Source: Salinadaptatus halalkaliphilus
GTDB lineage: Archaea; Halobacteriota; Halobacteria; Halobacteriales; Natrialbaceae
Length of the DNA stretch: 61,651 nucleotides
Assembly (NCBI RefSeq): GCF_006543045.1
Contig: NZ_RBZW01000013.1
Location: forward strand, 1-61,651
Direction of reading: 5' to 3'
This document shows positions 7,454 through 30,484 of the stretch, in pieces (within the stretch, counting starts at the first letter, position 1; each line of letters opens with the position of its first letter). The notes below the pieces were generated by a model. It worked only from the letters and a program-made list of their open reading frames with translations, did no database searches and was not told the DNA's origin. The position numbers were made by a program, and so were the translations under genes.

Positions 7454-8431
7454 TCAGAAGAACGTGAACTCGCCGTCCTCGAGGACGACTTCGCCGTCGA
7501 GTTCCAGCGTCGGTTCGGCCATCATCGCGTCGAAGTGAACCGGTGCCCGCGTCGTTCCGCCGAGGTTACTGCTTGTTCCGATGCCGAAGTGCACGTTGCC
7601 GTATCGGCCGTGATCGTTCGAGAACCAGCCGTTGAAGTCGGGACACTCCGGATTCATGCCGACCGCGAGCTGAGCGATATTGTAGACGGCGGGGTCGTCG
7701 TGTTCGTTCCAGACGCGCTCGATCGTCTTGGCTTCCGTCCCGCCTTCGACGGACGTGACGGCCCCGTCTTCCATCTCCATGACGACTGGCTCCTCGAGGA
7801 CGCCGATGTCTAGGTTCGGAATCGCGCCGTCGAAGACGACGGTCCCCTCTGTCGTCCCTTCGACGGGCGCGATGTTCGCTTCGATGTGGACCAGCGCGGT
7901 GAACGCGCCGGGTTCGTCGGCGATACCGGGATGTGCGTTTCCGTCCTGTCCTTCGAGGCCGACGGTGACGTCCGTTCCCTGTGGCGTGGTGATGCGGGCT
8001 TCGCTGGCCTCGCCGAATTTCCGTCCCATCTCTTCACAGTGTTCGCGCATCCCTTCGTAGTCGGCGTACAGGCCGCCACGGATGAGCTGTTCGTCGGTGA
8101 ATTTCACCATACTGATCAGCCGGGCGCCGTTTTCCGTCGCCTTCGCTGCGGCTTCGGAGTGGGTGATCGATCGGTGAACCGGCGTGATGATTACATCGGC
8201 CTCGAGCATCGCGGCGGCGACGCTCTCTTCGGGCTCGTTGCCGTCGTACTCCCGTGGGTCCATCAGCGTCATCGTCACGTTTGCGTCCCGTTCCTTGGCG
8301 GCGGCGGCGACTCGTTCGGCGACGTCTGAAACCTGCCAGTCGCTGACGACCAGTACGTCCTCGCCGGCTTCGATCGCTGCACACGTTTCGACGACGATAC
8401 TCGCGCCTTTCATCTCCTGTACGGAGTCCAT
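7454..8431 (-). CDS. M29/NicX-fold metalloprotein (aminopeptidase-like or ring-cleavage dioxygenase-like), copy A
   Basis: This 325-residue protein belongs to the superfamily of M29 (AmpS/AmpT) aminopeptidases and the iron enzyme NicX (2,5-dihydroxypyridine dioxygenase). The C-terminal metal motif is present: His281 in GNVHFGIG, then GG and H299-F-D301. A glutamate at the position where copy B has Glu251 is here Gln254 (NIAQLAVG), so the metal site may differ from classic M29 enzymes. It is divergent from the PrpF gene at 8587. A TATA-like element near 8454-8461 fits a leaderless start at 8431. The reaction is not known. Location among carboxylate-oxidation genes favours a catabolic role over protein breakdown. 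Confidence 0.72.
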   Translation of the reverse strand: MDSVQEMKGASIVVETCAAIEAGEDVLVVSDWQVSDVAERVAAAAKERDANVTMTLMDPREYDGNEPEESVAAAMLEADVIITPVHRSITHSEAAAKATENGARLISMVKFTDEQLIRGGLYADYEGMREHCEEMGRKFGEASEARITTPQGTDVTVGLEGQDGNAHPGIADEPGAFTALVHIEANIAPVEGTTEGTVVFDGAIPNLDIGVLEEPVVMEMEDGAVTSVEGGTEAKTIERVWNEHDDPAVYNIAQLAVGMNPECPDFNGWFSNDHGRYGNVHFGIGTSSNLGGTTRAPVHFDAMMAEPTLELDGEVVLEDGEFTFF

Positions 8432-8586
8432 AAGTGAGGTTGTGGCATCCGCGTACTAATACGTTCCTGTCGAGACCGTGCTGGGTCAGCGGTCGCCGCG
8501 TTGGAGTCGAACGGGTAACCCAGGCAGCCACCGTGGGCGAATCCGATACAATCAACTATCGCGGCGATAAATTGCCAGACAGGCTA

Positions 8587-9714
8587 ATGGATCAGGAGCA
8601 ACTCGAGTGTGCAATCGTCCGCGGCGGAACGAGCAAAGGCGTCTACATTCGTGAAGACGAGCTTCCGGAATCGAACCGCGACGAGGCAATTCTCTCCCTG
8701 TTTGGTAGTCCCGACGATCGACAGATCGACGGGCTCGGCGGTGCGACATCGACGACGTCGAAACTGATGATCGTCACCGCGAGTGATCGCGACGGCGTCG
8801 ATGTCGATTACACCTTCGGTCAGGTCGCCGTCGACGAACCGGTTATCGATTACGGTGGCAACTGCGGGAATCTCACGTGTGGTATCGGCTCGTTCGCTGT
8901 CGACGAAGGACTCGTCGACGTCGATGCCGACGCCGATGCTGTCGACCTTCGACTCTACAACACGAATACGGGCGCAATTATCGACCAGACGGTTCCGCTG
9001 TCGGGTGAGCGGGCCGAGACGCGCGGGGAGTTCAAGGTTCACGGCGTCCCCGGAACCGGTGCACGGATCGATACCACGTTCCGTGACCCTGCCGGTGCCG
9101 TCACCGACGAGCTGTTCCCGCTTGGCGAGCCGACGACGGAGATCGAGGTCGACGGCGAACCGATCGAGACGAGCGTCGTCGACGTGACGACGCCCGTGGC
9201 GTTCGTTCGTGCGGCCGATATCGGACTCACCGCGACCGAACTCCCCGACGAGATCGATAGCGACCCCGAGCTCCTCGAGCGCATCGAGCGGATTCGAGCG
9301 GCGGTCTGTGAGCGACTCGGCCTCGTTGAGGACGCCGATCGGGCGTCGATCGAGTCGCCAGGCTATCCGAAGCTCGCGTTCGTCACCGAGCCGACGACCT
9401 ACGAGGGGACGACCGGTAACGAGGTTCGTGCCGACGAGCAAACGATCACTTCGCGGATCATGAGCATGCAGAAACTGCACCCGGTGTACGCCGTGACGGG
9501 CGCATCCTGTACCGCCGCAGCTGCAGTGTTGCCAGGCACGATTCCCCACGAGGTCGCCGACGACGACGGCGATCAGGTGGCTATCGGCCATCCCAAGGGG
9601 ACGATGACCGTTCGTGCCGATGTCGACACAGCGGCGCCGAGCGTCGATGCGGTCACGATCTATCGGACATCGCGTCGGCTCATGGACGGCACCGGCTACT
9701 ACCAGACGAACTAA
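8587..9714 (+). CDS. PrpF-family isomerase (aconitate / methylaconitate / oxalomesaconate type), copy A
   Basis: This 375-residue protein is of the PrpF/DUF453 family, whose members isomerise 2-methylaconitate or aconitate or tautomerise 4-oxalomesaconate. The family signature RGGTSKG is at residues 12-18. Lys59 (TTSKLM) and Cys93 (GGNCGNL) match the two catalytic residues described for PrpF. The open frame extends 51 codons upstream, but the family start [18 protein letters not shown] fixes the ATG at 8587. It lies beside a second M29/NicX-like gene and between tctCBA and a TcuA-like gene, so an aconitate isomerase role fits. Substrate is inference. Confidence 0.85.
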
Positions 9715-9863
9715 TCTCGTCGTCGTCCTTTGATCGGGTGCGTCGACCCGTTGTGGTGTGTCGGTTCAACGCTGTCGCCGACCGTTGGGACGATCCGTTC
9801 GAGAGACGGCCAAATCACCGATATTTTTATGCCGGTTGGCGGCAGCTATCACATATAGAAACT

Positions 9864-10838
9864 ATGCTCGACGTAGAGATGGCGACAGCAGCGCGTGGTA
9901 TCGTAGACGAGTGTCTCGACGTGCAACCCGGCGAAGAGGTGCTGGTCGTCGCCGACGCGAAAAAAGAGGAGGTCGCACGCGCCGTTGCACGAGCGGCAAC
10001 TGCGGCCGGGGCAGAGGCGATAATCACGACGATGCCGCTGCTCGAGAGCCACGGGAACGAGCCCCCCGAAACGGTTGCGGAGGCGATGGCCGCCGCCGAT
10101 GTCGTGTTTACGTGTACGACTCACGCTATCACCCACACCCGATCGCGGCTCGCGGCCGCAGAGGCTGGTGCCAGATGCGGTATTCTTCGCAGCGTGACCG
10201 AGGAGATGATGGTCGAGGGCGCCATGAGCGTCGACTTCGAGGAGCTTCGGACTCGAACCGAAGCCGTTCGTGATGTCCTCGACGACGCGTCCGAGGTTCA
10301 CGTACGTAGTGACGAGGGGACCGACATCACGTTCAGTGTCGAGGGCTGCTCGGCGTTCTCGCTCGACGGCTATTTCCACGAGAACTACGGCTTTGCGACG
10401 CTCCCACCGGGCGAGTCGCCGACCCATCCAGCCGAGGGGACCGCAAACGGGACGATCGTCGTCGATGTCTCGATGGACAACCTCGGCCAACTCGAGGAAC
10501 CGATCACCCTCGAGGTCGAAGACGGGTTCGTTACCGAAGTCGAGGGTGGCGAGCAGGCCGATGCGCTCCGGACGCTGATCGCGGAAAGCGACGAGAACGC
10601 CGGCAACCTCGCGGAGTTTGCGATCGGGACCAACCCCGAGGCGAAGCTGATCGGCAACCTCGCCGAGGACAAGAAACTCGCCGGAACGGTCCACTTTGCC
10701 GTCGGCGACAACGAGTCACTCGGCGGGACGCTGAAAAGCGACATCCACCTGGACGGTGTGGTTCGAACGCCGACCGTCACGCTCGACGATCGCGTCGTCG
10801 TCGAGGATGGACAGCTCGCAGCCGACATTTTCGAGTAA
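9864..10838 (+). CDS. M29/NicX-fold metalloprotein, copy B
   Basis: This 324-residue paralogue of the protein at 7454-8431 keeps the probable metal ligands: Glu251 (NLAEFAIG), His277 (TVHFAVG), His295 and Asp297 (DIHLDG). The glutamate missing from copy A is kept here. The longer open frame from 9738 is not used by homology: the conserved protein starts MLDVEMATAARG. TTTTTATG near 9824 may serve as promoter element. It sits between two PrpF genes. Possible functions are aminopeptidase or non-haem iron ring-opening dioxygenase. The sequence does not decide between them. Confidence 0.72.
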   Translation: MLDVEMATAARGIVDECLDVQPGEEVLVVADAKKEEVARAVARAATAAGAEAIITTMPLLESHGNEPPETVAEAMAAADVVFTCTTHAITHTRSRLAAAEAGARCGILRSVTEEMMVEGAMSVDFEELRTRTEAVRDVLDDASEVHVRSDEGTDITFSVEGCSAFSLDGYFHENYGFATLPPGESPTHPAEGTANGTIVVDVSMDNLGQLEEPITLEVEDGFVTEVEGGEQADALRTLIAESDENAGNLAEFAIGTNPEAKLIGNLAEDKKLAGTVHFAVGDNESLGGTLKSDIHLDGVVRTPTVTLDDRVVVEDGQLAADIFE

Positions 10839-10907: not shown

Positions 10908-12068
10908 TTAATTCGGTCGCTCTACGCGCTCGAGATCACGGTAGAAGGCGGTCCCGCTCATGAGCAGTCTGGCCGTCCGGCCGATCGAGACGTGGTTGAT
11001 CGTCCCGGCATCGTCGTCGACGCCGATCGTCATCGTCCCTTTGGGATGGCCGATTCGGACCGCATCGCCGGTCCGTCTCGCGGTTTCGGCGGGAATGGTC
11101 TCGGGGATCCGTGTCGCCGCTGCCAGACACATCGCGCCCGTCGTCGCGTAGGCGTGGTGGGGTCGTTGCGTCGAGACCATTCGGGCCGTAATATCGAGAT
11201 CCGCCGCGTCGATGGTCGCCTCGACGGTCGTGTCGTAGCGCTGTGGCTCCGACACGGCCGCGATAAACGGCATCGTCGGTCGCTGCTCGAGCGCGTCCGC
11301 CGGCTCGTCGACGAGCCCGAGTGTCACACAGGCCTGTCCGCGAATCCGCTCGAGTCGCTCGAGGAATTCCTCGTCTTCCTCGAGGTCGGCGGGCGATTCC
11401 GTCCCCGTGAGATCGAGGTCCGACGCCCGAAGGAAGACGGTGACGTTCGTCGCATCTACGATGGAGACTTCGTAGGGCTCGCCGTCGACGACGAGTTCGT
11501 CGGTCGCGTTCCCCGTGGGCAACGTCGTCTCGAGGATGCCGCCGCCGGGCTCGAGATACCGCGACTGGACGCGGGCGCCGGTACCGGGGACGCCGTCGAT
11601 GCTGTAGGTGCCATAGGGATTTGGCTCGCCGTCGACGACGGGCACGTCCTGCTCGATGATCGAGTCGGTGTTTTCGCTGTAGATCCGAACCGTCGTCGTC
11701 GGCTCGGTCGGTGTCACGAACCCCTCGAGGATCCCGTAGACGCCGACGGCACTGACGAGGTTGCCACAGTTCCCGCTCCAGTCGACGGTCGGATTGGAGA
11801 TACCGATCTGGGCGTACTCGTAAGCGATATCGGCATCCGGTCGGTCGCTGTCGTTGACGAGCATCAGCTTGCTCGTATGCGTGTGGGACCCGCCCAGTCC
11901 GTCGACCTGCAGCGGGTCGGGCGAGCCGAACAACTCGAGGAGCAACTCGTCGCGTTTCTCGGGATCGGCCGGCATCGTCGCCGGGGTCGTAAAGAAACCC
12001 TTGCTGGTTCCCCCACGGATGAGACAGCCGTCGATCCCGTGTTGTACGCTCGAGGTATCGAGGTTCAT
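10908..12068 (-). CDS. PrpF-family isomerase, copy B
   Basis: This second PrpF-type isomerase has 386 residues. RGGTSKG is at 18-24, with catalytic-type Lys67 (HTSKLML) and Cys101 (SGNCGNL). The C-terminal [13 protein letters not shown] is shared with copy A ([10 protein letters not shown]). A TATA box (TTTAAA, 12092-12097) sits 26 nt before the ATG at 12068, and the in-frame ATG at 12089 would lie almost on it, so 12068 is the start. It converges with NicX-fold copy B, which ends 70 bp away. Two PrpF copies suggest two related unsaturated acids or a heteromer. Neither is proven. Confidence 0.85.
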   Translation of the reverse strand: MNLDTSSVQHGIDGCLIRGGTSKGFFTTPATMPADPEKRDELLLELFGSPDPLQVDGLGGSHTHTSKLMLVNDSDRPDADIAYEYAQIGISNPTVDWSGNCGNLVSAVGVYGILEGFVTPTEPTTTVRIYSENTDSIIEQDVPVVDGEPNPYGTYSIDGVPGTGARVQSRYLEPGGGILETTLPTGNATDELVVDGEPYEVSIVDATNVTVFLRASDLDLTGTESPADLEEDEEFLERLERIRGQACVTLGLVDEPADALEQRPTMPFIAAVSEPQRYDTTVEATIDAADLDITARMVSTQRPHHAYATTGAMCLAAATRIPETIPAETARRTGDAVRIGHPKGTMTIGVDDDAGTINHVSIGRTARLLMSGTAFYRDLERVERPN

Positions 12069-12091
12069 ACCCCCACGTACGAACGTCATCG

Positions 12092-12319: not shown

Positions 12320-13705
12320 ATGGACGCGCTCGATCCTGGGACGTGTACGATTGCGGCGACTGGCGATTCGATCATAACCCGGCCCATTGGCCATCTCGCC
12401 GAGCGAGACGAGGGGTTTGCCGATCTGCAAGCGTTGCTTACCGACGCCGACGCGACGGTGACGAATCTCGAGGTTGTGTTGCCGGACGACGACACCGCCG
12501 GAACGCCGCCGGTGGCGGTCCCCAGCCAGTACCAGTATCTCAGTTCTTTGGCGGGTATTCTCATGCGAGCCGATCCCGTCGTCCTCGAGGAACTCGAGGA
12601 GTTGGGGATCGATCTCTTTGCGACGGCATCGAACCACTCGTTCGATTACGGACGCTCGGGACTGAAAGCGACCATCGACGCGCTGACCGAACGGTCGCTT
12701 CCGTTCGCGGGGATGGGACGGACGCTTGCCGACGCACGACGGCCGGCGTACGTCGAGACGGCGGGCGGGCGCGTCGGCCTCGTCGGGGCGACCGCGAGCG
12801 TTCCGCCGGCGAGCGAAGCCGGCCCCGCCTCGCCGATCCATCCCGGCCGGTCGGGAGTCAACCCGCTCCATCTCCGGTGGGTCTACGGCGCCACGCCGGC
12901 TCAACTCGAGCGACTCCAGGACCTCGCTGCCGAACTCGGTATCGAGTCGATGAAATCGACGTGGCTCGATCGATCCGCCCCCGATCGCGACGAGCACTCC
13001 TATTACTGGTTCATGCACATGCCGATCGAGACGGTCAACGACGAGAGCGAGGTCGGCGTCCGACTCGAGCCGATCGAGGCGGATCGTCGTGCGTATCTCG
13101 AGTCGGTGTCGACGGCGGCGACGAACGCGGACTGGACCGTCGCGAGCCTGCACGGCCACCAGTCGGCTGGCGGCGTCAGAAATACGTCGGAGACGCCGGC
13201 GTTTCTGCGAGCGTTCGCACGCGAGTGCATCGACGCGGGTGCGGACCTCTTCGTCGTCACCGGCCCGCACGTGCTCCGTGGCATGGAGATCTACGAGGGG
13301 CGACCGATCTTCTACTCGCTTGGCAACCTCTTCTATCAGACGGAGACGATCGAGTGGCTCCCACCCGAGAGTTTCGATTACTACGGGGTCGACGACCGAA
13401 CGGCCATGACCGACCTGTTCGAGGCGCGGTATTTCGACACCGACGGGAATCCCGCCGGCAATCTCGCGCGCGACGAGTACTGGGAAACCGTCGTCCCTGT
13501 CTGCCAGTTTGCCGACGACGTACTCGAGTCGATTACACTCCATCCCTGCGTGCTCGGTCAGGACCGCGACCTGCCCCGGCGTGGGACGCCGACGCTCGCG
13601 ACCGGCGAGGCGGCCACGTCTATTATCGAACGCTTTCAGACGCTTTCGGAGCCGTACGGCGTCGATATCGCCCTCGAGGACGACGTTGGCGTCGTCGACT
13701 GGTGA
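12320..13705 (+). CDS. CapA/PgsA-like metallophosphatase-fold protein
   Basis: This 461-residue protein belongs to the CapA family (poly-gamma-glutamate synthesis-associated, calcineurin-like fold). Conserved blocks are present: ATGDSI at the N-terminus, TVTNLEVVL, ATASNHSFDYG, HGHQ and GPHVLRGMEIYEGRPIFYSLGNL. No signal peptide or membrane anchor is visible, unlike surface CapA. A catabolic or hydrolytic soluble role is therefore as likely as polyglutamate export, and the usual capB/capC partners are absent. CTATTTGG at 12289-12296 is 27 nt upstream and gives a leaderless start at 12320. Confidence 0.82.
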   Translation: MDALDPGTCTIAATGDSIITRPIGHLAERDEGFADLQALLTDADATVTNLEVVLPDDDTAGTPPVAVPSQYQYLSSLAGILMRADPVVLEELEELGIDLFATASNHSFDYGRSGLKATIDALTERSLPFAGMGRTLADARRPAYVETAGGRVGLVGATASVPPASEAGPASPIHPGRSGVNPLHLRWVYGATPAQLERLQDLAAELGIESMKSTWLDRSAPDRDEHSYYWFMHMPIETVNDESEVGVRLEPIEADRRAYLESVSTAATNADWTVASLHGHQSAGGVRNTSETPAFLRAFARECIDAGADLFVVTGPHVLRGMEIYEGRPIFYSLGNLFYQTETIEWLPPESFDYYGVDDRTAMTDLFEARYFDTDGNPAGNLARDEYWETVVPVCQFADDVLESITLHPCVLGQDRDLPRRGTPTLATGEAATSIIERFQTLSEPYGVDIALEDDVGVVDW

Positions 13706-13816
13706 CGCACAGGGGTTGACGATGACGTTCGTCGAGCCCGATTCGCGCTCTCAAGGACAGCCCGCTCGAGTTTGCGCGACAGTAACGTATTTCACGAGGG
13801 CGTTCGGTGTGATCGT

Positions 13817-14320
13817 ATGGTCGAAGAAGGCGAACCGGCACCCGATTTCACGGTGCCACTGGCAGGTGGCGACGCGTACAACGACCTCGAACAGTTCACG
13901 CTCTCGGATGCCCTCGGCGACGGGCCGATCGTACTCGCGTTTTTCCCGGCGGCGTTTACCGGCGGGTGTACCGAGGAAATGTGTACGTTCCGCGATTCGA
14001 TGGCCGATTTCGAGGCGCTCGATGCGCAGGTGTACGGCATTAGCGTCGATCTCCCGTTCGCACAGAACGTGTGGATGCAAGAGCACGACCTCCAGTTCCC
14101 GATGCTCTCGGACTGGGACCACGAGGTAATCCATCAGTACGACGTCGTTCTCGAGGAGATGTACGGCTCGATCGAGGCGGCCGAACGGAGCGTCTTCGTG
14201 CTCGATGCCGAGGGGACTGTCGCGTACAGGTGGGTTCGAGACGACGAGAATCCCGAGTTCGAGACGTTTATCGACGACGTTCGAGACGTCGTTGTGGATG
14301 TCGTCGACGAGACCGTGTAG
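13817..14320 (+). CDS. Peroxiredoxin (AhpC/TSA, BCP/PrxQ-like)
   Basis: This thiol peroxidase of 167 residues reduces hydrogen peroxide and organic hydroperoxides. The active-site segment FFPAAFTGGCTEEMC gives the peroxidatic Cys51 in a P-x3-T-x2-C motif. A second Cys56 at five residues' distance is the arrangement of PrxQ/BCP-type enzymes that form an intramolecular disulfide. The open frame continues 15 codons upstream, but the protein starts MVEEGEPAPDFTVP and a TATA-like ACGTATTTC (13785-13793) lies 27 nt before 13817. The reductant partner is not obvious, though a thioredoxin-reductase-like gene lies at 23621. Confidence 0.88.
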   Translation: MVEEGEPAPDFTVPLAGGDAYNDLEQFTLSDALGDGPIVLAFFPAAFTGGCTEEMCTFRDSMADFEALDAQVYGISVDLPFAQNVWMQEHDLQFPMLSDWDHEVIHQYDVVLEEMYGSIEAAERSVFVLDAEGTVAYRWVRDDENPEFETFIDDVRDVVVDVVDETV

Positions 14321-23620: not shown

Positions 23621-24541
23621 CTATGGCTGACTATCGGTTTGTGACTCGAGGTACTGCTGTACGGACCGGCAGGCAGTAATCCCATCACCGACAGCTGCCC
23701 CGACCGTTTGTGGCGAGCCACACCGAAGGTCGCCAGCCGCGAAGACTCCGTCGGTCTCGGTTTGCAGGTCGGCGTCGGTAACGATTTCGCCGCGGTCGTT
23801 GGTTGGGATCGCATCGCCGAGAAATTCGGTGTTCGGTTCGATCCCGACTTGGACGTAGAGGCCATCGACGTCGACGATATCAGTTCGACCAGCGCTGTCG
23901 ATGACGTTGATACTGTCGATCACGTCTTCGCCCGTTACCTTCGTAATCTCGGTCCCTGTCCGAACCTCGATCGTCGAGTTCGATGCGACGCGCTCACGAA
24001 GCGAAGCGCCCGCCGGTAGTTCCGACTCTGTCTCGAACAGGATGACCTCGGCGGCGTGGTCGGCCAGAAAGAGCGCATCGGTAAGCGCCCAGTCGTCACC
24101 ACCCGCGACGGCGACGACCTCGTCCCGGTACAACGGCCCGTCACACTTCGCACAGTAGAAGACGCCCCGTCCCGCGTAGGCCGATTCGCCCGGCACGTCC
24201 AGCGTCGATGCTCGTCCGCCACAGGCGATCAGAACGGCTCTCGCAGCGTATTCACCGCCCGATGTGGCGATTGTGAACGGATCTTCATCACGGATGTCGA
24301 CGACCTCCTCGAGGACGATCGGCACGTCGTACTGTTGGAACTGCTCGTAGAGGGTTGTCCGGAGCTCGGGACCGGAGACGTCGGGTCGGCCGGGATAGTT
24401 TTCGATTCGGTCCCTGTTTACGAGTTCCCCGCCCGGCGTCTCCGCTTCGAAGACGACCGCGTCGAGCCCCGCCCGTCCGGCAACGTGCCCTGCGGTTAAT
24501 CCGGCCGGTCCCGCGCCGATGATAGCGAGATCGCTTGTCAT
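23621..24541 (-). CDS. Thioredoxin-reductase-like FAD/NAD(P) oxidoreductase
   Basis: This 306-residue flavoprotein has the N-terminal FAD motif IIGAGPAGLTAG, the redox-active pair Cys130-x-x-Cys133 (FYCAKCDGP) and the C-terminal FAD-binding FAAGDLRCG, the layout of low-molecular-weight thioredoxin reductase. The pyridine-nucleotide turn is altered (AGGDDWALTDA in place of GGGDSA), so cofactor choice may differ. It is the last gene of a three-gene unit, 9 nt after the 370-residue protein and downstream of the UGSC protein. It may therefore re-reduce one of them. The physiological substrate is inferred. Confidence 0.85.
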   Translation of the reverse strand: MTSDLAIIGAGPAGLTAGHVAGRAGLDAVVFEAETPGGELVNRDRIENYPGRPDVSGPELRTTLYEQFQQYDVPIVLEEVVDIRDEDPFTIATSGGEYAARAVLIACGGRASTLDVPGESAYAGRGVFYCAKCDGPLYRDEVVAVAGGDDWALTDALFLADHAAEVILFETESELPAGASLRERVASNSTIEVRTGTEITKVTGEDVIDSINVIDSAGRTDIVDVDGLYVQVGIEPNTEFLGDAIPTNDRGEIVTDADLQTETDGVFAAGDLRCGSPQTVGAAVGDGITACRSVQQYLESQTDSQP

Positions 24542-24550
24542 CGTCGTCGA

Positions 24551-25663
24551 TTATGGCTCCGTCGTCGTGCCCCACTCCCGCTCGAGGTGCGGGCTGTATG
24601 TCTCGAGTAAGTCCTCCCAGTTGTCGGGAAGCGAAATCGCTTTCGTCGTCGGCCCGCCGAGCGTCGGTCCCATGATGGCGTCCCAGCGGCCGCTCCCGCC
24701 GGTGACGAAGAGGTTGATGCGGTCGGGGTCGTCGAACTGTCGACGCTGGAACGGCGGGAGCCCGTCGCTGTCGGAGTCGGCCTCGGAGCGCTCGACACCG
24801 GGGTCGAACTGGTGGATCGGCACGTGGGAATTCTCGTAGATGTGTTCGCGAATCTCGGCTTTCGTGTAGTCTGCGAGTTCGCCAGCGTTGTACGGACACA
24901 GGGCGTAGAACACCTCCGTCTGGGTCCCCTCGTACCGTTCGTTCGCCGTTTCGCTTTTGACGCCGATCATCCGCGGCGGCGTGTTGTCGATCAGGTTGGC
25001 CAACACTCCTCGTTTGTCGACTCGCGTTCGAAACGGCTGTATGAAACTGTTCGGCGCCGCCATCGTGATCGTGCTTTCCTCGGCGTCGTATCCCCGTTCG
25101 ACGTGGTAGGGCTCCCACGGACTCCGCTCTTCGTTCTCCCCAGCGAGGAGACTGAACTTGAAGGGGTTCCCGAGCGTGGACATCTCCTTCTCTCCGGGGT
25201 GGATCCGCGCAGTGTTCTTGTAGGTCAATCCGAGCGCACGGCCGATGGTGCGATTCGACCGGAAACCGGGACCGAACGCACCGGTATCGGCGTTGATATC
25301 GAGGCTCTCTCGGATGGGGCCGTTGAGCAGACAGAGATACGCCCACGAGCCGGTACTGACCGACATCTGGAGCGCGTTCGTCTTCGGATCGATCAACGCT
25401 CGAGCGCCGGCCTCGAGCACGGGCATGTGAATCGGTAGACAGCCCGCCATGACGGCGTTGGTCGCGAGTTTTTCGACCGTTAACACGCCCTCTCTGGTTC
25501 CCAGGGTTCCGAGTTCCTCGTCGCGATCGCGGTCGGTCCCCTCGAGCATTCGGTCGACCCGCTCTTCGGTCGGCGTCACGACGGGAAGCCCATCGGTCGC
25601 GCCGCGACGGTAGAACGATTGATATGTCTCTTCGAAGGGGTCTTCGCTTCGGTGTTGTGCCAT
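24551..25663 (-). CDS. Uncharacterised ~370-residue protein encoded with the UGSC protein
   Basis: No characterised family is recognised with confidence. The protein is soluble and carries NAVMAGCLPIHMPVLEAG (residues 69-86) with Cys75, plus a Gly-rich C-terminal LFVTGGSGRWDAIMGPTLGG, which could be a nucleotide or cofactor loop. A block resembling NAVMAGC is remembered from genes next to UGSC (seleno)proteins, but this could not be checked. The ATG at 25663 lies 4 nt after the UGSC stop and is preceded by a GGTGAG ribosome site, so it is translationally coupled. A TTG five codons earlier is less likely. It may be a thiol-active partner or substrate-binding subunit. Confidence 0.7.
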   Translation of the reverse strand: MAQHRSEDPFEETYQSFYRRGATDGLPVVTPTEERVDRMLEGTDRDRDEELGTLGTREGVLTVEKLATNAVMAGCLPIHMPVLEAGARALIDPKTNALQMSVSTGSWAYLCLLNGPIRESLDINADTGAFGPGFRSNRTIGRALGLTYKNTARIHPGEKEMSTLGNPFKFSLLAGENEERSPWEPYHVERGYDAEESTITMAAPNSFIQPFRTRVDKRGVLANLIDNTPPRMIGVKSETANERYEGTQTEVFYALCPYNAGELADYTKAEIREHIYENSHVPIHQFDPGVERSEADSDSDGLPPFQRRQFDDPDRINLFVTGGSGRWDAIMGPTLGGPTTKAISLPDNWEDLLETYSPHLEREWGTTTEP

Positions 25664-25667
25664 GTAT

Positions 25668-26267
25668 TCACTCACCAATCGACGCGACTTCGTCAGTTCG
25701 ATCGGTTTCGTCGGTGTCAGCCTGGCGTTCCTCGTCGCTCCGTGGCCGCGTCAGTTCTGTTTCGATCTCCTCGAGTACGTCGGCTGTGATCCGATCGCGG
25801 ATCCGATCGAGGTCGGTCAGTTCGGCGTGGGCCTCGAGTTTGTAGTTTCGGATCGGCCGACCCAGGTCGCTCGAGTTGGTCTGCCAGTCGAGCTCGAAGC
25901 CCGAATCGATGAGTCCGACGGCCGGCGTTTCCGACCGTTCGACCGCTTCGATCGCGTAGACGAGGTACTTCGTACACGAGCCACAGTCACCGATCGCGCC
26001 GATACAGGCGTCGATGTCGTCGGCCCACGACTCGATGCGCTCGAGTTCCTCGTCGTTTTTCAGCTGGTTGAGGTGGTCGACCGCGTAGTGGTCGACAGTT
26101 GCGTTCGGATAGGCATCGGTGATTCGTTCCTCGACGACGGTTAGGGTCGGCTCGGCGGCGAGCTTCCCGTTGTCGAACAGGCCAATCCGTTTGTCCGCCA
26201 GGCTTTCGATTCGGGGTGCGATCGGCGTCTGTTCGACGTCCGAAGAGTCGGCTATCGGATCTAGCAT
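25668..26267 (-). CDS. UGSC-family protein, cysteine form
   Basis: This 199-residue protein has the family core CIGAIGDCGSCTKYLVYAIE. In bacterial members the first Cys of C-G-S-C is selenocysteine (U-G-S-C). Here it is Cys95 with Cys98 as the resolving partner, giving a CxxC redox pair. The family is annotated as (seleno)protein of unknown reaction. It begins MLDPIADSSDVEQTP at 26267. It is first in a three-gene unit with the 370-residue protein and a thioredoxin-reductase-like flavoprotein, which is strong context for a thiol redox role. Confidence 0.75.
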   Translation of the reverse strand: MLDPIADSSDVEQTPIAPRIESLADKRIGLFDNGKLAAEPTLTVVEERITDAYPNATVDHYAVDHLNQLKNDEELERIESWADDIDACIGAIGDCGSCTKYLVYAIEAVERSETPAVGLIDSGFELDWQTNSSDLGRPIRNYKLEAHAELTDLDRIRDRITADVLEEIETELTRPRSDEERQADTDETDRTDEVASIGE

Positions 26268-28375: not shown

Positions 28376-29116
28376 TCAGGCCTCGAGGACCGGGTCCGGG
28401 TTCTCGATGACCTCCATGACGCGCTCGAGGTAGTCGTCGATATCCTCGCGTGCGACGGGGTTGCCGTGGATCGGCGCGACGTAGGAGACATCGAGGATAT
28501 TGAACATCGTCTCGAAGGCGGCCCCGAGCGTGTCCTCGTCCAAGTAGTCGACGAAGGGGATCTTGTCCCGGTAAAACTGGTCGATGTGAAGGTCGTCGAA
28601 CCCGTTTGCGAGTTCGTCCGTCGTCTGTGTGCAGACGCCCGGTTCGTGGTAGTGACCGAACGCCTCCGCGGTGAACAGGACGCCGGAGTCGTGATCAAAC
28701 GCCCACTGGGACACCGTCACGTCCGTGAGAAGCGGGTGGATGCAGGTGATCGGCCGCCCGGCGAATTCGACGGGGCGGTTCAACTGTCGCGGCTTCGCAC
28801 CCGGCAGCCCGACGACCTCCGGAAACCGTCCCGTCGCGGCGATCGTTTCTATCTCACCCCACTCGTCTTCGAACGCGGGCACGTTCTCCGTGTGTGGCAG
28901 CGTCGAGTGGGTGAGCAACACCACGTCCGGTCCGTCGCCGTCGGTGAGTCGGTCGATCTCCGCGACGATCTCCTCGCGGTAGTGACTCGAGCCCGAGTCG
29001 ACGAGTACCGTGCCCTCCTCGCCCTGGATGAGGTACTCGGACATGTGCATGTGGTACTGCTCGTCGGGGTGGCAACTCGAGATCCAGTAGACATCGTCGG
29101 TGAGTTGGGTCGTCAT
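28376..29116 (-). CDS. MBL-fold protein with degenerate diiron site (copy 1)
   Basis: This 246-residue metallo-beta-lactamase-fold protein resembles the oxygen-binding ODP domain of flavodiiron proteins. Its metal motif is decayed: H70-S-T-L-P-H75 in place of H-x-E-x-D-H, and Glu151 where an Asp ligand is usual (LFTAEAFGHY). The last His217 (APIHGNP) is kept. It may be non-catalytic, a structural partner of the next protein, or use a different metal set. It overlaps the upstream MBL gene by 4 nt (ATGA), so the two are translated together. No flavodoxin domain follows. Confidence 0.8.
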   Translation of the reverse strand: MTTQLTDDVYWISSCHPDEQYHMHMSEYLIQGEEGTVLVDSGSSHYREEIVAEIDRLTDGDGPDVVLLTHSTLPHTENVPAFEDEWGEIETIAATGRFPEVVGLPGAKPRQLNRPVEFAGRPITCIHPLLTDVTVSQWAFDHDSGVLFTAEAFGHYHEPGVCTQTTDELANGFDDLHIDQFYRDKIPFVDYLDEDTLGAAFETMFNILDVSYVAPIHGNPVAREDIDDYLERVMEVIENPDPVLEA

Positions 29117-30042
29117 TGCTCTACCTCCGGCGGTCGCAGGATGTACTCGAGTTTGCTCTCCATGTTGGCCTGCTCGCCCTCTCGGGAGAGCGCCTCGGCG
29201 GCCTCGAGGAACAGGTCCAGGTACGCGTCCAGCTCTTCGGTCATGACCATGCCGTGGGCCGGCGCGATGACGTCGGGATCGAACGTTTCCCGGACATCGT
29301 CAACGGCGCGCTCGATTTCGTCCAGATCCGCGAATCGCATCCAGGGAAACGCCAGCGCGTGAAAGCGAAACACCTGCTCGGTGGCGACGTCGCGGTCGAG
29401 CTCGCTCGCGAACGAGACGCAGTTGGCACTCTGGTGGAGAAAACCTAGCCAGTCGACCGTAAACAGCGTGTTCGTCGTCCGTTCGCTCATCCACAACGTA
29501 AACGAGTGATCTGGAAACGGCGGCGCTTCGAACTCGACCGTGTGGGTGCCCAGATCGATCGACTCTCCCGGCTCGACGTACTGGATTTCGTTTGGCACCT
29601 GCTCGACGTCCTCGGGTGTCTCATCCGCGATGTGATACAGTTCGTGCTCGGCGCTGTGGCCGCGTCCGTAGCCGGCCGCTTCACCGGGGACCAGCAGCGT
29701 CGCGTCCGGATACGCCTCGAGGATCGTGAACGTGTTACCGGCGTGATTGGCTTCGGGATGGGAAATGACGAGATAGTCGAGCTCCTCCCCATCGAGTAAT
29801 TCGTCGATCAGATCGACGACGTGGTCGCTGTTTGGCTGTGTCAGCGTATCGAACAGCAGATTTTGCTCGTCCGAGAAGAGATACGCGTTCTGACAGCCGT
29901 GAACTTCCTCGTCCGGTTCGACCCACTGCTCGAGGTCGAAGCGCTCGAGTTCGCTGAGCGTCCCCAGGGGGAGACACTCCTGTGTCCAGTAGATACCGTC
30001 GCTGAGTCTGCGGTGTTCGGGTGGAGCTACCTCTTGTGCCAT
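29113..30042 (-). CDS. MBL-fold protein, flavodiiron-like ODP domain (copy 2)
   Basis: This 309-residue beta-lactamase-fold protein of the ODP type has metal ligands His95, Glu97 and His100 (ISHPEANHAG), His179 (FPDHSFTLW), Asp197 (FTVDWLG) and His263 (APAHG). The usual Asp ligand of H-x-E-x-D-H is Asn99, so one iron ligand is changed. The flavodoxin domain of full flavodiiron NO/O2 reductases is absent. It leads a three-gene unit (MBL copy 2, MBL copy 1, iron-type alcohol dehydrogenase). MAQEVAPPEHRRL at 30042 is the start, with an AT-rich box near 30073. Confidence 0.82.
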   Translation of the reverse strand: MAQEVAPPEHRRLSDGIYWTQECLPLGTLSELERFDLEQWVEPDEEVHGCQNAYLFSDEQNLLFDTLTQPNSDHVVDLIDELLDGEELDYLVISHPEANHAGNTFTILEAYPDATLLVPGEAAGYGRGHSAEHELYHIADETPEDVEQVPNEIQYVEPGESIDLGTHTVEFEAPPFPDHSFTLWMSERTTNTLFTVDWLGFLHQSANCVSFASELDRDVATEQVFRFHALAFPWMRFADLDEIERAVDDVRETFDPDVIAPAHGMVMTEELDAYLDLFLEAAEALSREGEQANMESKLEYILRPPEVEQ

Positions 30043-30484
30043 GTTCTGTCTAGTCACACCATCTGTAATAGCATAATTCTTGGTATGGGAACGGATAATC
30101 GCCGAATCTACGGGGTTGGATGACAACGTACCGACGCGATCACGACCCGTCGCGTGTTCGCACCGATGAGAGTTCAGGCGTGGAAGGCTACTATAGATGG
30201 CTGCCCGTCTCGCGAGCGATTGGGACCAGGTGTCGAAATACGCGAGCACAGTCGGCCTGCTGTACCGTGTTAGTGGAGGATCGTGGACCGTCCTGGGGTC
30301 ACGCCGGTACCGACGTACAGCAGTCGGTCCGATACATCCGGACGGTACGCTGCATTCACGGTCGCCCCTGCGTCGCAGTCGCCGAGTCGTTTACAGCGAG
30401 TGCAGGACCGGCAGGAGCTGGCGAAACGTCACAAATTAACTACAATATCTTCGGCGTCGTGTCTGACCGGGAGGAGAGACGAGA
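30043..30484. other. Intergenic region before the small methyltransferase-tail gene
   Basis: These 442 bp hold the promoter of the MBL unit on the minus strand and a ribosome-binding site at the right end. A weak stem (GCCTGCTGTACCG near 30258 against CGTACAGCAGTCGG near 30310) may be a decayed dispersed palindrome. No coding remnant of a methyltransferase N-terminus was recognised. Confidence 0.4.
30466..30476 (+). promoter_or_regulatory. Strong Shine-Dalgarno site (GGGAGGAGA)
   Basis: GGGAGGAGA ends 8-9 nt before the ATG at 30485. Strong ribosome sites are uncommon among the mostly leaderless genes of this window. This one suggests that the gene is or was translated from a longer transcript. 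Confidence 0.6.

Follow-up and report, generated by a model that had tools for sequence, protein, structure and literature searches.

In aquatic metagenomes, UGSC proteins have been some of the most abundant selenoproteins since 2008; a function has been lacking, and a thioredoxin fold has been presumed. The published accounts, in the parts available to us, class them with thioredoxin-like folds and give no function (PMC2398784; PMC13188914), and Zhang and Gladyshev reported a fusion of UGSC with a protein termed Unknown_1 (PMC2398784). For PrdB of D-proline reductase, a scheme has been described in which selenocysteine (Sec) attacks the alpha carbon of the substrate to form a selenoether, a Cys of PrdB cleaves the selenoether to leave a selenide-sulfide, and NADH-fed PrdC re-reduces the selenide-sulfide (PMC3091704). 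In glycine reductase, electrons are supplied by NADPH through thioredoxin reductase and thioredoxin (PMC3091704). A GrdB-like operon has been proposed to cleave even C-F bonds (PMC10838667).

The locus described here lies in a window of 61,651 nucleotides, the whole stretch of DNA analyzed from the haloarchaeon Salinadaptatus halalkaliphilus. It spans 23621-26267 on the minus strand and comprises three genes in the order UGSC, P370 and thioredoxin-reductase-like (TrxR-like), separated by 4 nt (25664-25667) and 9 nt (24542-24550). Its features are as follows.

25668..26267, minus strand: UGSC-family gene, Cys form, 199 aa (PF24696 match, family-level homology to the GrdB/PrdB Sec domain, AF2 model)
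25974..25985, minus strand: codons of C95-G96-S97-C98 of the UGSC gene; TGA/Sec at position 95 in bacterial relatives (sequence)
25671..25676, minus strand: GGTGAG, ribosome-site-like, 7 nt before the P370 ATG (sequence)
24551..25663, minus strand: P370, 370 aa, family unassigned; obligate neighbor or fusion partner of UGSC (co-occurrence, fusions)
25439..25441, minus strand: codon of Cys75 (NAVMAGC) of P370; conserved, Ala in three relatives (alignments)
23621..24541, minus strand: TrxR-like flavoprotein, 306 aa, UGSC-linked clade, without HRRxxxR (TIGR01292-like, tree)
24143..24154, minus strand: codons of C130-A-K-C133, the redox-active CxxC of the TrxR-like gene (sequence)

The original prediction had described three genes with this order, strand and spacing, and all of it agreed with our analysis. 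The first gene, which had been called a Cys-form UGSC protein, carries D94-C95-G96-S97-C98 (DCGSC), with Cys95 and Cys98 as predicted. The second, proposed as a 370-residue partner of no characterized family with Cys75 in NAVMAGC, has this motif, gave only scattered weak matches and no family in Pfam and NCBIfam, and gave no match to PDB sequences. The third, proposed to be TrxR-like with an altered dinucleotide turn, has CAKC at 130/133 and AGGDDWALTDA at 146. A ribosome site had also been claimed for the second start; GGTGAG is a plausible candidate for this role, and the TrxR-like gene has no upstream site as good.

The window UGSC protein matches the Pfam UGSC family PF24696 at 81.7 bits (cut-off 25) and the NCBIfam equivalog NF041046 at 55.3 bits, below the cut-off of 125. 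On these profile scores it can be placed as a divergent haloarchaeal branch of the family. It thus shares its family with the UGSC-containing selenoproteins (PF24696, NF041046), as these are presented in the accessible part of the account of Zhang and Gladyshev (2008, PMC2398784), and it is distinguished as a Cys form. The [U/C]GxC active motif is present, and Cys95 and Cys98 are invariant across the UGSC alignments. Of 98 UGSC genes at 80 loci, 93 have TGA as the active codon and five have Cys; TAA or TAG never occurs there. RNA folding over the 50 nt from the TGA was more stable than in shuffled sequences (mean z -1.63), compared to -0.42 for the Cys forms. Every haloarchaeal UGSC is a Cys form. 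In a Roseobacter MAG, a SelB gene (L117:5366-7249) lies just upstream of a UGSC-P370 pair.

Compared with other families, UGSC is closest to selenoprotein B. With a GrdB profile built from true GrdB proteins of similar kinds of genomes, hhalign aligned UGSC and GrdB along 130 columns, placing one Sec column on the other (95.4% probability, P = 2e-8); the short GrdB-like UPxC family was also matched (P = 6.5e-7), and the negative controls (GrdE and P370) gave nothing useful. When 40 UGSC members were compared to NCBIfam, the next five families were TIGR01917, TIGR01918, GrdF, GrdH and PrdB; TIGR01917 was matched by 18 of the 40 (best 2e-6) and the PrdB model TIGR04483 by eight. The GrdB profile, run against six-frame translations of the 80 loci, returned UGSC genes as all of its top 19 matches, most with weak scores. 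The window UGSC alone gave no match to the GrdB models. These comparisons, made with family-level profiles and carried by 8 to 18 of 40 members, indicate that UGSC is homologous to the Sec domain of selenoprotein B of glycine, sarcosine, betaine and D-proline reductases. This homology is new, being absent from the available parts of the published UGSC accounts.

The predicted structure leads in the same direction. In the AF2 model of UGSC (pLDDT 91.8), strands and helices alternate and Cys95-Cys98 start the helix that follows the third strand. Its top 50 Foldseek matches are mostly Rossmann- or flavodoxin-like, and no thioredoxin-like structure is among these 50 matches to the predicted model; by sequence, UGSC gave only chance matches to the PDB. 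On the model, UGSC is not thioredoxin-like, contrary to the published assignment as given in the parts seen of PMC2398784 and PMC13188914.

UGSC shares several features with GrdB/F/H (PF07355, TIGR01917), including the homologous Sec domain with aligned UGTC/UGSC columns, the expansion into substrate-specific paralogues and, at the level of the whole locus, the supply of electrons to Grd systems via thioredoxin reductase and thioredoxin (PMC3091704). In contrast to GrdB, UGSC is without the large N-terminal domain. No classical GrdB was found in the genome of the window, in a search in which the control genomes were also without a match. Two observations concern GrdB itself. First, GrdB-like UPxC selenoproteins (L147-L155, L159, L161) occur in Chloroflexota and other MAGs; they are without the large GrdB N-terminal domain, often have an extra C-terminal region, and hhalign relates them to the Sec domain of GrdB (99.8%). 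Second, one Deltaproteobacteria MAG (G303, the genome of L093) has about 20 GrdB and 27 GrdE matches, which shows classical B complexes of the glycine-reductase type greatly expanded in a non-clostridial genome.

The association of UGSC with P370 is close to complete. Among 292 Halobacteria genomes searched for both families, UGSC and P370 occur in the same 16 (Fisher 1e-26), and P370 adjoins UGSC at all 17 haloarchaeal UGSC loci. Because the two are adjacent in every sampled haloarchaeal genome with either, the pairing is not due to chance. At about half of these loci, a second P370 copy flanks UGSC or lies a few kb away. Natrialba asiatica and Halobellus clavatus, both of which can be cultured, are among the haloarchaea that have the locus. 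The P370 profile, run over GTDB contigs, recovered 582 relatives, from which 80 loci were retained; UGSC is near P370 in 72 of them, a count unchanged with a broader UGSC profile, and two of the eight loci without UGSC run into a contig end. In the reverse direction, P370 lies within 1.5 kb at 27 of 34 UGSC-centered bacterial loci. In a further sample of 148 genomes from the class of a Dehalococcoidia MAG, UGSC is found in 45, P370 in 45 and both in 44 (Fisher 2e-35), the two singletons, one UGSC and one P370, being marginal matches. One lone P370 gene (G219:C1:582111-583166; L028, L055) has no UGSC nearby, and its genome has two other UGSC-P370 loci.

The two proteins are also joined and diverge together. 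In bacteria, 28 cases of a single open frame encoding an in-frame UGSC-P370 fusion were found. Pairwise distances correlate between UGSC and P370 (r = 0.68 for 96 pairs, null maximum 0.17), and do so for 19 paralogue pairs within one genome (r = 0.85, null maximum 0.50). Each UGSC is therefore matched to a P370 of its own, and at least 20 pairs are present in some genomes of the Dehalococcoidia class. Unknown_1, as described in the accessible part of PMC2398784, is probably P370. In the parts seen of that account and of PMC13188914, we found no description of the P370 partner, the GrdB homology or a dedicated reductase. Collectively, the recurrent association, seen in 16 of 16 haloarchaea and 72 of 80 P370-found loci, together with the fusions and the co-divergence, makes the case for a dedicated UGSC partner stronger than the original prediction had guessed.

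P370 itself is not easily placed. Its AlphaFold model is fair (pLDDT 81, pTM 0.84), and Foldseek found no confident fold for it; assignment to the class I fumarase fold was given up, as the top matches were too weak (E about 1e-3, TM about 0.2). A relationship of P370 to GrdE, GrdB, the short GrdB-like family or UGSC was ruled out by hhalign, with a probability of 0.06% against the profile of GrdE, the pyruvoyl partner. Therefore, substrate activation must differ from the GrdE type. Invariant residues among 45 diverse P370 proteins include D24, G25, P27, M72, A73, G74, N137, R142, E176 and W183. At position 75, the scored matches have Cys in 104 cases and Ala in the three relatives L063, L064 and L099; the first two of these adjoin Sec forms of UGSC, and the contig of the third is cut. 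Thus, Cys75 is conserved and not obligatory.

The TrxR-like gene scored 275 bits against TIGR01292, below the cut-off of 343, which is not diagnostic because most housekeeping haloarchaeal TrxRs miss it too. Like TrxB (TIGR01292), the protein has an FAD fold and a CxxC in a CxxCD context. Compared to TrxB, it is without the NADPH motif HRRxxxR (FETESEL stands where HRREEFR is expected), belongs to a separate clade and is linked to UGSC-P370 rather than housekeeping. In Rossmann dinucleotide sites generally, an acidic residue past the second strand points to NADH, and such a residue is present here. Because an acidic turn stands in place of HRRxxxR, the enzyme probably uses NADH. A tree of 33 TrxR-like proteins places those linked to UGSC in haloarchaea together (91/82) and separate from two well-supported housekeeping groups; their group also takes in one unlinked member, whose gene is 18 kb from a UGSC pair. 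HRRxxxR is missing from every UGSC-linked protein. In the genome of the window, a housekeeping TrxR lies on contig C23, and another TrxR-like match (G000:C12:6991-7653) scores 249 bits over model positions 1-219.

A TrxR-like gene lies within about 1.5 kb of 8 of 17 haloarchaeal UGSC loci (about 4e-14 by chance under a simple placement model). It is directly downstream in three genomes (this window, G144 and G181), and at the other five linked loci the gene is divergent or lies at a distance of 0.2 to 1.5 kb. Of 79 loci outside haloarchaea, one has it adjacent: a Burkholderiales MAG (L064) carries it next to a fused UGSC-P370 gene, and the branch of this TrxR-like protein is long and its tree position unsure. 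At another locus outside haloarchaea, it is 5 kb away. UGSC is rare in the class of this MAG (3 of 229 genomes). TrxR as a constant third member was rejected, with 3 of 80 loci only. Since about half of the haloarchaeal loci and nearly all bacterial ones have no such gene, the TrxR-like gene is a lineage-limited accessory. A dedicated reductase had been predicted, along with the check that it should not cluster with general thioredoxin reductases; within haloarchaea both stand, given the separate clade and the missing HRRxxxR, and as a general rule the dedicated reductase does not, since it is missing from most loci.

The surroundings are catabolic. The window is a catabolic island with TctC/TctA and DctM-type transporters, PrpF-like genes, amidohydrolases, thiolase, MaoC, enoyl-CoA hydratase, acyl-CoA dehydrogenases, CoA-transferase, and LLM and Rieske proteins. 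Neighbors of the bacterial pairs include TctC receptors, peptide-type binding proteins, CoA-transferases, acyl-CoA dehydrogenases, amidohydrolases and TPP enzymes. This context of uptake and acyl-CoA catabolism fits substrate-specific catabolic enzymes; naming a substrate from it was given up because the neighbors are too variable.

The reading that we favor, with a probability of roughly 0.57, is that UGSC and P370 form a two-subunit, substrate-specific reductase, related to GrdB/PrdB, that cuts C-X bonds, with the TrxR-like protein closing the cycle. P370, which in many bacteria is a domain of the same chain as UGSC, would bind and orient a small carboxylate or acyl substrate. The attack on the substrate carbon, with displacement of the leaving group, would come from Cys95 (Sec in bacteria) at a helix N-terminus; Cys98 would then resolve the (seleno)ether, so that the reduced product is freed and Cys95 and Cys98 end up joined in a disulfide. 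In the haloarchaeon of the window and some relatives, the TrxR-like flavoprotein may reduce this disulfide directly through Cys130/133. P370 would take the place of GrdE/PrdA with different chemistry.

A close parallel is D-proline reductase PrdB/PrdA/PrdC (TIGR04483). Both systems have a short protein with a homologous Sec domain, a selenoprotein with UxxC in PrdB, and a separate partner subunit, and the PrdB selenide-sulfide has an NADH-fed reductase (PMC3091704). However, P370 shows no relation to pyruvoyl subunits, as judged with the GrdE profile, the reductase here is TrxR-like and not PrdC, the window form has Cys in place of Sec, and UGSC-P370 occurs in haloarchaea and many non-clostridial bacteria.

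Other explanations can be weighed against this. First, Sec or Cys95 might be the nucleophile of a lyase, hydrolase or isomerase built with P370, a non-redox enzyme whose CxxC the TrxR-like protein merely keeps reduced in aerobic haloarchaea. This would suit the dispensability of TrxR across bacteria, the amidohydrolases, CoA-transferases and enoyl-CoA hydratases among the neighbors, and the likeness of P370 to fumarases with their hydro-lyase fold. However, that likeness is too weak for use, the homologues of UGSC are electron-consuming reductases, and the retained CxxC pair with its invariant Cys98 points to a disulfide-forming step; we consider such an enzyme unlikely.

Second, the original prediction favored a thiol relay, which would pass electrons from TrxR Cys130/133 through P370 Cys75 to UGSC Cys95/98 and on to a protein disulfide or peroxide. 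Three conserved Cys centers do share one operon, the TrxR clade is linked to UGSC, and Cys predominates at position 75. The relay is nevertheless weakened, because three relatives have Ala75, one of them (L064) with an adjacent TrxR on the same contig, which demotes Cys75 as an obligatory step, and because UGSC is not thioredoxin-like and groups with GrdB/PrdB. Most loci are also without TrxR, and the many matched pairs of paralogues that single genomes have in catabolic clusters argue for substrate enzymes and not general redox defense, which leaves the relay improbable. Third, and still a little less probable, the TrxR-like gene could be a passenger of the island serving another protein, such as the peroxiredoxin-like one at 13772-14320, as the five linked loci outside a direct operon would allow, but the UGSC-P370-TrxR order in three haloarchaeal genomes, the gene beside the Burkholderiales fusion, the linkage far above chance and a clade that tracks UGSC loci speak against this.

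The two-subunit reductase thus remains the preferred reading. With the tie to GrdB/PrdB and the single obligate partner, "some redox protein" gives way to a precise hypothesis in which Sec/Cys attacks a C-X bond, and a long-open selenoprotein family gains a defined partner and a specific function that can be tested. We suggest, tentatively and at somewhat less than even odds, that UGSC-P370 represents an unrecognized, widely expanded class of GrdB/PrdB-type reductases outside amino-acid-fermenting clostridia, in which P370 replaces the pyruvoyl subunit, one matched pair serves each substrate, and the haloarchaeal selenium-free version has its own NADH-dependent TrxR-like enzyme and no thioredoxin. 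Given the number of pairs in some Dehalococcoidia-class genomes, soil and ocean bacteria may have a whole layer of substrate-specific degradation that annotation has missed. Because no selenium machinery is required for it, the haloarchaeal Cys form is the easy one to express and assay.

Several other genes of the island deserve mention. At 7454-8431, 8434-9714, 9738-10838 and 10908-12089 of the window, two related genes are interleaved with two PrpF-like genes; the two related genes presumably resemble M29 aminopeptidases, as compared by eye, and the gene at 7454-8431 had no Pfam match at 1e-8. At 28376-30249, two adjacent metallo-beta-lactamase-fold genes are like the diiron domain of flavodiiron proteins, with no flavodoxin domain detected by Pfam. 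A PGA_cap (CapA-like) protein is encoded at 12320-13705, and members of the same family lie within 2.5 kb of UGSC-P370 pairs at three bacterial loci (e.g., L131:8563-9744).
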